Part shown: in pieces, positions 37,802 to 39,321 of the stretch
Numbering within the stretch: position 1 is the stretch's first letter
Layout of the letters: each line of letters starts with the position of its first letter
NCBI GenBank assembly: GCA_019694795.1
Contig: JAIBBF010000018.1
Coordinates: 1-55,825, forward strand
Direction of reading: 5' to 3'
Length of the DNA: 55,825 nucleotides
Source: Flavobacteriales bacterium
Lineage (GTDB): Bacteria; Bacteroidota; Bacteroidia; Flavobacteriales_D; UBA2798
Notes under the pieces: model-generated
Database searches by the model: none
What the model was told of the DNA's origin: nothing
The model's input: the letters and a program-made list of their open reading frames with translations, nothing else
Translations under genes and position numbers: made by a program

Positions 37802-37833
37802 TTTTTGTGTAACCAAATGGTTTCCTATATTTG
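37802..37833 (+). promoter_or_regulatory. Promoter of the arsR-SRPBCC operon
   Basis: TTTTTG (37802-37807) and TATATTTG (37826-37833) are separated by 18 bases, a near-ideal Bacteroidota promoter. The start codon is 17 bases downstream. Two operator copies flank the -7 box. Confidence 0.75.
37809..37824 (+). promoter_or_regulatory. Operator copy 1 for the ArsR-type repressor
   Basis: GTAACCAAATGGTTTC lies in the spacer between the -33 and -7 elements. It is a near-palindrome (GTAAC-N6-GTTTC, one mismatch) and nearly identical to copy 2. Confidence 0.65.
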
Positions 37834-37848
37834 TAACCAAATCGTTAC
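37833..37848 (+). promoter_or_regulatory. Operator copy 2 for the ArsR-type repressor
   Basis: GTAACCAAATCGTTAC has perfect 5-base inverted arms around CAAATC. It starts at the last base of the -7 box and covers the predicted transcription start. It differs from copy 1 at two positions. The centres are 24 bases apart. Confidence 0.7.
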
Positions 37849-37850
37849 AT

Positions 37851-38216
37851 ATGGAGACCCGCAGAGATGTTTTTCAAGCTATAGCAGATCCTACCCGAAG
37901 GGCTATTTTGGGTTTGCTGGCTACGCAGAGCCTTACCTTAAATGCCCTGGCCGAAAATTTTGAGGTGAGTCGTCCCGCCATTTCCAAGCATGTCAAAATT
38001 TTAAGCGAGTGTGGTTTAATCGAGATCGACCCCAATGGCAGGGAGCGTTATTGCAGAGCGCGAATGGATAAATTAAGCGAGGTATCAGATTGGGTAAATC
38101 AATACAGCAAATTCTGGGAATCGCAATTGGATGCCCTGGATCTTTATTTACAGCAATTACAGAACAGAGAACATAAAACAGAACCCAAAAACAAAAATCA
38201 TGGAAAAACCATTTAA
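37851..38216 (+). CDS. ArsR-family transcriptional regulator
   Basis: The 121-residue winged-helix repressor opens METRRDVFQAIADPTRRAIL, then LNALAENFEVSRPAISKHVKI with the recognition helix, then GLIEIDPNGRERYCRA for the wing. No metal-binding CxC motif of the ArsR/SmtB type is present. It belongs to the SdpR-like group that regulates an adjacent SRPBCC gene. Two operator copies flank its own -7 box, so autorepression is likely. Its 3' end overlaps the next gene by 17 bases. The ligand is unknown. Confidence 0.93.
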   Translation: METRRDVFQAIADPTRRAILGLLATQSLTLNALAENFEVSRPAISKHVKILSECGLIEIDPNGRERYCRARMDKLSEVSDWVNQYSKFWESQLDALDLYLQQLQNREHKTEPKNKNHGKTI

Positions 38217-38697
38217 GATTGTCCGCACTTTAAAAGCTCCGCGTGAGCTGGTGTTTGAGGCTTTTACTCAGGAACAGCACCTGAAACATTGGTGGGGACC
38301 AACCGGTATGCAGTTGGAAGTAATTAAACTGGATGTTCGCGAAGGCGGAAGTTTTCATTATAAAATGATTGGTGAAAACGGTATGTTTGGATTTGGTATT
38401 TTTCATTACCGGAAAATTAATGCACCAAACAGCATTGAATTCACCAGTTCATTTGCCGATGAAACAGGAGAGATTATTCGTCCACCATTTCCCGGAAATT
38501 TTCCGCTTCGTGTTTTGAATGTGTGGGAATTTTCGGAAGAGAATGGAGAGACCACCATTACTTTACAAGGCTGGCCTTTATCTGATGATCCGAAAGAAAT
38601 CGATTTCTTTGCGGGTATGCACGAAAGTATGAATGGAGGTTTCTCCGGGACATTTGCAAATCTGGAAGCATACCTCACGAAAATTATGCAATCGTAA
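38200..38697 (+). CDS. SRPBCC/AHSA1-domain protein
   Basis: The 165-residue protein is a START-like (Activator of Hsp90 ATPase 1 type) domain: APRELVFEAFTQEQHLKHWW, GPTGMQLEVIKLDVREGGSF, and the C-terminal helix GMHESMNGGFSGTFANLEAYL. The fold forms a hydrophobic pocket for small ligands. It is encoded with and overlaps an ArsR regulator, the usual arrangement for this family, in which the two proteins probably respond to the same compound. The start ATG at 38200 is set by the conserved N-terminus. A terminator follows. Confidence 0.92.
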   Translation: MEKPFKIVRTLKAPRELVFEAFTQEQHLKHWWGPTGMQLEVIKLDVREGGSFHYKMIGENGMFGFGIFHYRKINAPNSIEFTSSFADETGEIIRPPFPGNFPLRVLNVWEFSEENGETTITLQGWPLSDDPKEIDFFAGMHESMNGGFSGTFANLEAYLTKIMQS

Positions 38698-38720
38698 TTG
38701 GTATAGAAATTTTTATAATA

Positions 38721-38752
38721 AAAAAGGGCAGGATGATTTTCCTGCCCTTTTT
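38721..38752. terminator. Bidirectional intrinsic terminator
   Basis: AAAAAGGGCAGGA, loop TGATTT and TCCTGCCCTTTTT form a 13-bp stem between the convergent SRPBCC and YceI genes. Confidence 0.92.
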
Positions 38753-38754
38753 AT

Positions 38755-39285
38755 TTAAGCTTGTTTTACCAGCTGAATTTCGCCGTGTATTTTAATATCA
38801 TCACCCAGCAAAAATCCTCCTGCTTCTAATGGAGCATTCCAGTTTAATTCCCAATCCTTACGGTTGATTTTTCCATCCACCGTAAATCCTGCTTTCTGAT
38901 TGCCCCATGGATCTTTTGCAATACCGTTGAATTCGGCATTCAGTGTTACTTCTTTGGTGATTCCTTTAATTGTCAGATCACCAGCTAAAGTCATATCCGA
39001 ACCATTGGCTTCTACTTTTTTTGCAACAAATTTCAATTCAGGAAATTTATCCGCTTCAAAAAAATCACCACTGTGCAAATGTGCATCGCGTTGATCGTTG
39101 TTGGTAAAAATGGATTTGATTTCGGCTGTGACTTCAACTTTAGCTCCCGAAAAATTTTCTCCTTCGGTTTCTGCTGTTACCTGAAACGATTTGAATGAAC
39201 CGTTTACATTCGAAATCATTAAGTGACGGATTTTAAATCCTAATTCGCTGTGGGTTGGGTCGAGCGCCCATTTAATTGTTGACAT
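38755..39285 (-). CDS. YceI-family lipid-binding-like protein
   Basis: The 176-residue protein has the YceI pattern: WALDPTHSELGFKIRHLMIS, VEVTAEIKSIFTNNDQRDAH, HSGDFFEADKFPELKFV, then LAGDLTIKGITKEVTLNAEF. YceI proteins form an extended beta-barrel that binds isoprenoid or fatty-acid-like molecules. There is no signal peptide, so it is cytoplasmic, unlike E. coli YceI. It has a strong promoter (39348-39319) with a palindrome across the transcription start, implying repression by an unlinked regulator. Confidence 0.93.
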   Translation of the reverse strand: MSTIKWALDPTHSELGFKIRHLMISNVNGSFKSFQVTAETEGENFSGAKVEVTAEIKSIFTNNDQRDAHLHSGDFFEADKFPELKFVAKKVEANGSDMTLAGDLTIKGITKEVTLNAEFNGIAKDPWGNQKAGFTVDGKINRKDWELNWNAPLEAGGFLLGDDIKIHGEIQLVKQA

Positions 39286-39309: not shown

Positions 39310-39321
39310 TTGTATATACAA
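39310..39321. promoter_or_regulatory. Palindromic operator at the yceI promoter
   Basis: TTGTATATACAA is a perfect 12-bp palindrome that overlaps the end of the -7 box and the predicted transcription start. ACAATTGT (39303-39310), an 8-bp palindrome, adjoins it. The composition resembles MarR-family sites; the repressor is not identified. Confidence 0.5.

Follow-up and report, generated by a model that had tools for sequence, protein, structure and literature searches.

ArsR proteins are very common, and to our knowledge most of them are without a known operator. Metal-binding motifs in helix 3 or helix 5 are typical of members such as ArsR, CadC and SmtB. In Bacteroidota, TTTG at -33 is an element of sigma-A promoters. 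The pairing of an ArsR gene with a gene for an AHSA1-type protein is already known from Makarova et al. (2009), who listed this ArsR-COG3832 pair as toxin-antitoxin-like, but in the passages that deal with it leaned towards antibiotic resistance or stress response (PMC2701414). An autorepressing example has also been described: Rv2034 of M. tuberculosis represses itself through GTAAGTCTAAACTTAC, and Ms6762 is named as its homologue in the same report (PMC3338718). In NolR, another relative, base contacts are mostly made from helix 4, with Gln56 among them, as related in a paper on RexT (PMC8960804). On the promoter side, the -7 box of F. psychrophilum is TAnnTTTG, found at -12 to -5 (PMC9723704).

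Here, we describe an ArsR-AHSA1 operon of a Flavobacteriales bacterium; by the window we mean the whole stretch of 55,825 nucleotides that was analysed. Our reading, to which we give a probability of about 0.88 on sequence grounds, is that the operon is autorepressed through paired operators at its own promoter. The features are as follows:

37804..37807, plus strand: TTTG, a -33-type promoter element (from the sequence and from TTG/TTTG counts at paired loci)
37809..37824, plus strand: putative operator 1 (upstream), GTAACCAAATGGTTTC, inside the promoter spacer (from palindromy and conservation)
37826..37833, plus strand: TATATTTG, the -7 box (the position of TAnnTTTG is kept at paired loci)
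37833..37848, plus strand: putative operator 2 (downstream), GTAACCAAATCGTTAC, across the predicted transcription start (from palindromy and conservation)
37851..38216, plus strand: ArsR-family repressor gene, 121 aa (PF01022 46.3, PF12840 46.5 and NF033788 72 bits, all above cut-off)
38200..38697, plus strand: SRPBCC/AHSA1 gene, 165 aa (PF08327 68.6 bits, cut-off 22.1)
38721..38752, no strand assigned: terminator-like hairpin with a 13-pair stem (-21.9 kcal/mol for 38716-38756)

The two palindromes had been proposed in a sequence-only reading, and their sequences and coordinates proved exact on re-checking, as did the distance of 24 bases between their centres when the coordinates were re-read. 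The promoter given there, TTTG-N18-TATATTTG, also stands, with an 18-base spacer between its two elements, and it has both parts of the Bacteroidota housekeeping (sigma-A) pattern TTTG / TAnnTTTG. The start codon had been placed 3 bases after operator 2; there are actually 2 bases between the operator and the ATG at 37851-37853. The -7 box and operator 2 share one base, the G that closes the box and opens the operator. In each of the two operators 5 of the 6 outer positions pair. When the 62-base intergenic stretch was shuffled 20,000 times by mononucleotide, only 2 of the shuffles scored as high as the real pair. Because TAnnTTTG lies at -12 to -5 in F. psychrophilum (PMC9723704), transcription would start at about 37838 and the leader would measure about 13 nt; operator 1 would then lie at -29 to -14 and operator 2 at -5 to +11.

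The ArsR and AHSA1 genes overlap by 17 bases. All three profiles place an ArsR-type winged-helix domain in the first protein, and the top Foldseek match of its model is ArsR 3f6o. In this model (AlphaFold2, mean pLDDT 83.9) the recognition helix, helix 4, comprises residues 41-53 and includes R41, P42, A43 and K46. The second protein has an AHSA1 domain and a helix-grip fold (mean pLDDT of the model 95.3). Its top Foldseek match is 3uid, Ms6760 of M. smegmatis (E 9.6e-12), which probably comes from the neighbourhood of the Rv2034 homologue, since its gene number is near that of Ms6762 (PMC3338718). The leading matches are mostly structural-genomics entries without a stated function, and the 50 fold matches listed are AHSA1/START, PR-10, CalU16/DynU16-type or uncharacterised proteins, mostly with ligand-binding folds.

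Metal-binding motifs in helix 3 or helix 5 were looked for in 107 ArsR representatives and were not found: Cys is not among the five commonest residues at any of positions 27-37, and positions 78-94 have no conserved His, with D80 (in 30) and D94 (in 72) lacking His partners. Metal sensing was rejected because this ArsR has no metal site. Of the 190 homologues, 181 have Cys54 and 130 have Cys68, with mostly Tyr at position 68 in the others, and a thiol signal via Cys54/Cys68 is possible in this subfamily without metal motifs. ArsR-SRPBCC fusion proteins, judged by ORF length, are absent among the 190 homologues, the sole ArsR ORF of more than 140 aa (L119) having a low-complexity lysine-rich tail. 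Kinship to CRISPR regulators was likewise rejected, the PADLOC matches to Csa3 being read as a shared HTH fold.

Downstream, the hairpin lies between the convergent AHSA1 and YceI genes, and its ends are A-rich and then T-rich; it does not appear in the list of a consensus terminator scanner. The minus-strand YceI gene (38755-39285) has a perfect palindrome, TTGTATATACAA (39310-39321), just upstream of it and next to TACAATTGTTGTA. This looks like the operator of another regulator, by likeness perhaps one of MarR type.

The sequence-only reading would have been refuted by absence of the motif upstream of orthologues, and we found the tandem pair in 62 of 81 loci. This first set consisted of the window and the 80 best homologues kept from genome contigs, and the scan covered 90 bases before each start codon, with a palindrome taken as 5 of 6 outer positions paired. 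The window is one of the 62; 61 of them score 18 or more, a score that 0 of 1620 mononucleotide-shuffled upstream regions reach (7 reach 14). Of the 19 loci without a pair, 15 have at least one 5-of-6 palindrome, and no such palindrome was found within 90 bases in the other four (L021, L057, L058, L090). Several relatives have a single palindrome near the start codon, as in the Chloroflexota-type loci L042, L064, L069, L076 and L081. A rule free of any set base, using only palindromy and the likeness of the two sites, was applied to these 81 loci and 109 new ones, and gives a pair in 146 of the 190, although 5 of these have an operator 1 whose register is not G...C and which may be false. The distance between centres is 26 in 110 of the 146, 24 in 12, 28 in 11, 25 in 7 and another value in 6. 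The promoter is kept together with the operators: in 94 of the 146 paired loci the last base of TAnnTTTG coincides with the first of operator 2, as against 242 of 7300 shuffled spacers, and 132 of these loci have TTG no more than 6 bases before operator 1 (86 have TTTG). The autorepression layout claimed at the outset is supported by this conservation and by the way in which the operator letters follow the ArsR helix, described below.

Not every homologue has an operator close by. In two sets of new loci, none was found within 100 bases at 16 of 109 and 10 of 38 loci. When these 26, together with L120 (a false palindrome), were searched again over a longer stretch or with looser criteria, pairs consistent with their class were recovered in 9 of 27 (L102, L120, L127, L163, L172, L198, L199, L263, L264), 8 of them about 190-740 bases upstream; the other 18 remained without such a pair over the longer stretch too.

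It is the pair that is unusual, and matches to the single motif carry no weight. Within the window, the single motif at 3 mismatches has 8 matches against 4.6 expected. A search for the 16-bp motif elsewhere in the genome, as suggested in the sequence-only reading, gave no enrichment: at 1 mismatch it is rarer (39/45) than the reversed control (92/84), so no regulon beyond the ArsR-AHSA1 operon is claimed. The paired pattern occurs at one place in this genome. A search for the exact pattern, GTAACC-N5-GTTWC-N7..14-GTAACY-N5-GTTWC, across 395 genomes from the phylum found it in 16, window included, at one place each, and the reversed control in 0. At least 105 of the 395 genomes have an ArsR match, and most of them are missed owing to the strictness of the pattern and its restriction to a single operator class. 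An ArsR homologue lies within the 3 kb examined at 15 of the 16 places, the exception being L250. At 11 of these 15 the pair stands directly before the ArsR gene, and at 4 before another first gene, which is AHSA1 (L236, L237, L240) or RibD_C (L246). A downstream ORF is present in 70 of the 80 homologues; 65 of the 70 match AHSA1 and 8 match a glyoxalase/bleomycin-resistance domain. Such glyoxalase-domain partners hint at a detoxifying role. The partner in the best-scoring homologue (L014, 2326-3243) is an AHSA1-glyoxalase fusion. The paired pattern is also present in 11 viral-contig stretches without an ArsR match in the DNA examined, several of which are longer repeat arrays; L299, L292 and L290, for instance, have arrays of GTAAC-N6-GTTAC units.

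The letters of the operators can be compared with the protein next to them. For this, the half-site of the window was read as G1 T2 A3 A4 C5 C6 against helix-4 residues 41-53; the right half of the window's operator 1 (37819-37824) reads GAAACC, i.e. it has A2. In the first 81 loci, P42 goes with T2, Q42 with C2 and A42 with A2; A43 goes with A4 and T43 with G4; K or R at 46 goes with C5, Q, L or E with G5 and V with T5. These rules were fixed before any locus beyond the first 81 was examined. The first new set held 109 loci among the matches listed, of which 81 had a pair, 12 a single operator and 16 none. The majority base was correct in 80 of 93 loci for base 2, in 89 of 90 for base 4 (three S43 loci had no rule) and in 81 of 93 for base 5, with L120 scored wrong for all three bases. 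Counted per half-site, the figures are 311/348, 333/336 and 306/348, where always choosing the commonest base of that table would score about 50%, 87% and 78%. Three of the 109 proteins are at least 90% identical to a training protein and 18 at least 70%; without these 18 loci the rules are correct in 64/76, 72/73 and 64/76 for bases 2, 4 and 5, and after thinning to below 85% identity in 49/60, 57/58 and 52/60.

A second new set of 38 loci (25 with a pair, 3 with a single operator, 10 with none) is less independent, as 24 of the 38 are at least 80% like a protein already seen. Here, base 2 was correct in 26 of 28 and base 4 in 28 of 28, but base 5 in only 10 of 28, and 17 of the 18 misses had Thr43. 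A refined base-5 rule, T or C with T43 and K46, had been noted before the second-set results were seen. The two sets together have 29 operator-bearing loci that combine T43 with K or R at 46; of their 112 half-sites, 84 carry T at base 5, 27 carry C and 1 carries A. Since T predominates in these loci, a strict rule of one residue per base was rejected for base 5. Among the 14 loci of the second set below 80% likeness to a protein already seen, the 7 with operators gave 6/7, 7/7 and 5/7 for bases 2, 4 and 5. Operator letters thus appear to be largely predictable from a few repressor residues, and because the letters follow the recognition-helix residues of the adjacent ArsR protein, the motif is tied to that protein.

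The same positions come out of a scan without prior rules. Among 96 residues x 8 base positions (768 pairs) in 107 representatives below 85% identity, the top three pairs were 42/base 2, 46/base 5 and 43/base 4, with an excess mutual information of 0.84, 0.69 and 0.39; the fourth-ranked pair had 0.32. Independent contrasts were counted on a quick tree from which residues 38-50 had been left out, and went in the expected direction in 12 of 12 for Q/L/E46 with G5, 8.5 of 10 for P42 with T2, 6.8 of 7 for Q42 with C2 and 2.8 of 3 for T43 with G4, the mean of opposite contrasts being 0.0 for each of the four rules. None of 56 other variable residues exceeded a net share of 0.47 with base 2 (the strongest, from 2 contrasts) or 0.37 with base 5 (the strongest, from 8). 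Supported branches alone leave 2-4 independent contrasts for the four rules among those listed, too few for a test. The residue-base association is, like the sites, their conservation and their tie to ArsR operons, an observation made directly on the loci.

The half-sites of one locus need not all be alike. Among 8 representatives with Q42/A43/K46/R49, 6 and 5 have A2 in the two outer half-sites, and 7 have C2 in each of the two inner ones. Of 228 proteins, 226 have R at position 41, and in the two exceptions, L262 (M41) and L285 (L41), the half-sites start with T (read by eye) and the two operators abut and do not frame the box. Abutting palindromes with a centre distance of 16 were seen by eye in L262, L285, L204, L207 and L208, which have L, M or Q at 41. 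Relatives outside the phylum are 33-41% identical. Among 12 plasmid loci of other phyla, 9 have a 5-of-6 palindrome and three (L203, L206, L211) have none. In this first batch, L or I at 41 goes with T1 and Q41 with A1, as read after the fact. A general rule that A42 goes with A2 was rejected: it holds with R41 and fails with L41, where T or C is found (L209, L210, L213). For a second out-of-phylum batch of 8 loci the rules were fixed first. L303 fits in 4 of 4 bases (ATAAGT with Q41, P42, A43 and Q46) and L301 in bases 1, 2 and 5, its S43 being without a rule. L305 has a palindrome in which A43 fits A4, and no rules exist for its F41, V42 and N46. In L300 and L302 no palindrome was found, the palindromes of L304 and L307 were not usable, and L306 is part of an arsenic operon. 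Rv2034, too, presumably carries Q at position 46 of its helix, as the rule predicts.

Paralogues offer another view of the code. Among 147 loci of 89 genomes (among the matches listed), 11 of 92 within-genome pairs share their class at 42, 43 and 46, against 18.7 expected from between-genome pairs of like identity (P 0.010), although the pairs are not independent, related genomes repeating the same two paralogues. Genome G099 has five classes in its six sampled ArsR copies, and classes are repeated among the seven of G391. That paralogues differing at 42/43/46 are insulated from each other in one genome is only a hint, because of this dependence and because the counts are from among the matches listed. 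We regard it as an even bet that there is a largely modular code (41 for base 1, 42 for base 2, 43 for base 4, 43 with 46 for base 5) which extends throughout Bacteroidota and into other phyla, and that in addition the code words of paralogues in one genome have drifted apart so that many ArsR switches operate next to each other free of cross-talk.

Several other explanations of the paired sites have to be weighed. The pair could bind another regulator, phage-type or another HTH repressor, and the ArsR gene could merely happen to lie downstream. This would account for the pattern without an ArsR match in the 11 viral-contig stretches and at L250, 1 of the 16 genome places; however, the other 15 adjoin ArsR, and at loci examined only once the rules had been fixed the motif letters still changed with residues in helix 4 of the neighbouring ArsR, which makes such a coincidence very improbable. 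We also consider it improbable that the ArsR-AHSA1 pair is a toxin-antitoxin-like module with the palindromes as its autoregulatory site. It was listed as such by Makarova et al. from its uneven spread and two-gene form (PMC2701414), and both the gene overlap and the patchy spread (at least 105 of 395 genomes) would agree with this, but the 50 fold matches listed for AHSA1 are mostly ligand-binding folds and the gene order varies between loci.

A different question is whether both palindromes are at work, since operator 2 alone might suffice, with operator 1 a degenerate, auxiliary or promoter-shaped copy. Loci with a lone palindrome near the start codon (L042, L064, L069, L076 and L081 among them) speak for this, and so does a recurrent asymmetry in the window's own class, P42/A43/K46/K49, where A2 occurs in the right half of operator 1 in 21 of 45 representatives, the window being of this kind, and in that of operator 2 in 6 of 45. 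Yet 146 of 190 loci have retained the two copies, with little variation in the distance between them, and in two other classes base 2 is identical in all four half-sites (P42/A43/Q46/K49 in 10/10 representatives, Q42/A43/L46/K49 in 11/11). On balance, a single working operator seems unlikely.

For the autorepressed operon with paired operators we infer the following course of binding, repression, signal and response. An ArsR homodimer would bind each of two 16-bp palindromes with the half-site GTAACC, one in the spacer of the TTTG/TAnnTTTG promoter and the other overlapping the -7 box at its end and covering the transcription start. The two dimers would lie on different faces of the DNA, because a centre distance of 26 bp is about 2.5 turns and the 24 of the window about 2.3. 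With both sites filled, RNA polymerase would be blocked at ArsR's own promoter. Specificity would come from the first turns of helix 4, with residue 42 setting base 2, 43 setting base 4 and 46, together with 43, setting base 5. A signal, probably not a metal, would release ArsR and allow the overlapping AHSA1-type protein to be made, whose most likely task is to bind, sequester or modify a small compound that is hydrophobic or toxic. If so, the old guess about the ArsR-COG3832 pair would give way to a defined promoter, suitable for reporter fusion and ligand screening. If operators can be read from three or four residues, the operator, and hence the regulon, could be predicted for many uncharacterised ArsR members, and mutually insulated repressors could be designed for Bacteroidota.

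Compared with described systems, the window has the same gene pair as the ArsR-COG3832 module of Makarova, Wolf and Koonin, with its uneven distribution, and the metal-binding motifs are missing in both; the passages on this module contain no operators, promoter layout or residue-base relation, unlike the present analysis (PMC2701414). Rv2034 is the closest in organisation, as the window likewise has overlapping ArsR and SRPBCC genes and a 16-bp palindrome at the promoter. There, an ArsR gene is followed in overlapping frames by a polyketide_cyc2 (SRPBCC-type) gene, a footprinted palindrome with two arms 4 bp apart lies beside the start codon, the protein represses itself, and zinc and six other metal ions are without effect, in line with the lack of a metal motif in the window's ArsR (PMC3338718). 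In contrast, Rv2034 has one palindrome with the half-site GTAAGT instead of GTAACC, and is reported to act on many other promoters (PMC3338718). NolR of Sinorhizobium fredii, solved with DNA (4omy), matches in fold and in a gapless profile over helix 4 but has another operator and regulon, and its Gln56 (PMC8960804) would map to R41 and not to 42, 43 or 46, given a chain-numbering offset of +15 and native numbering assumed equal. Regulators have been compared with their motifs by comparative genomics in the IclR and LacI families (PMC8222616, PMC4052901), the title of the IclR paper naming co-evolution, but these are other families. Our search, which covered the open literature, brought up no report of these operators, nor of a comparable code in ArsR proteins. 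What is new here is that the letters of the putative operators vary with three residues, 42, 43 and 46, at the start of the recognition helix.
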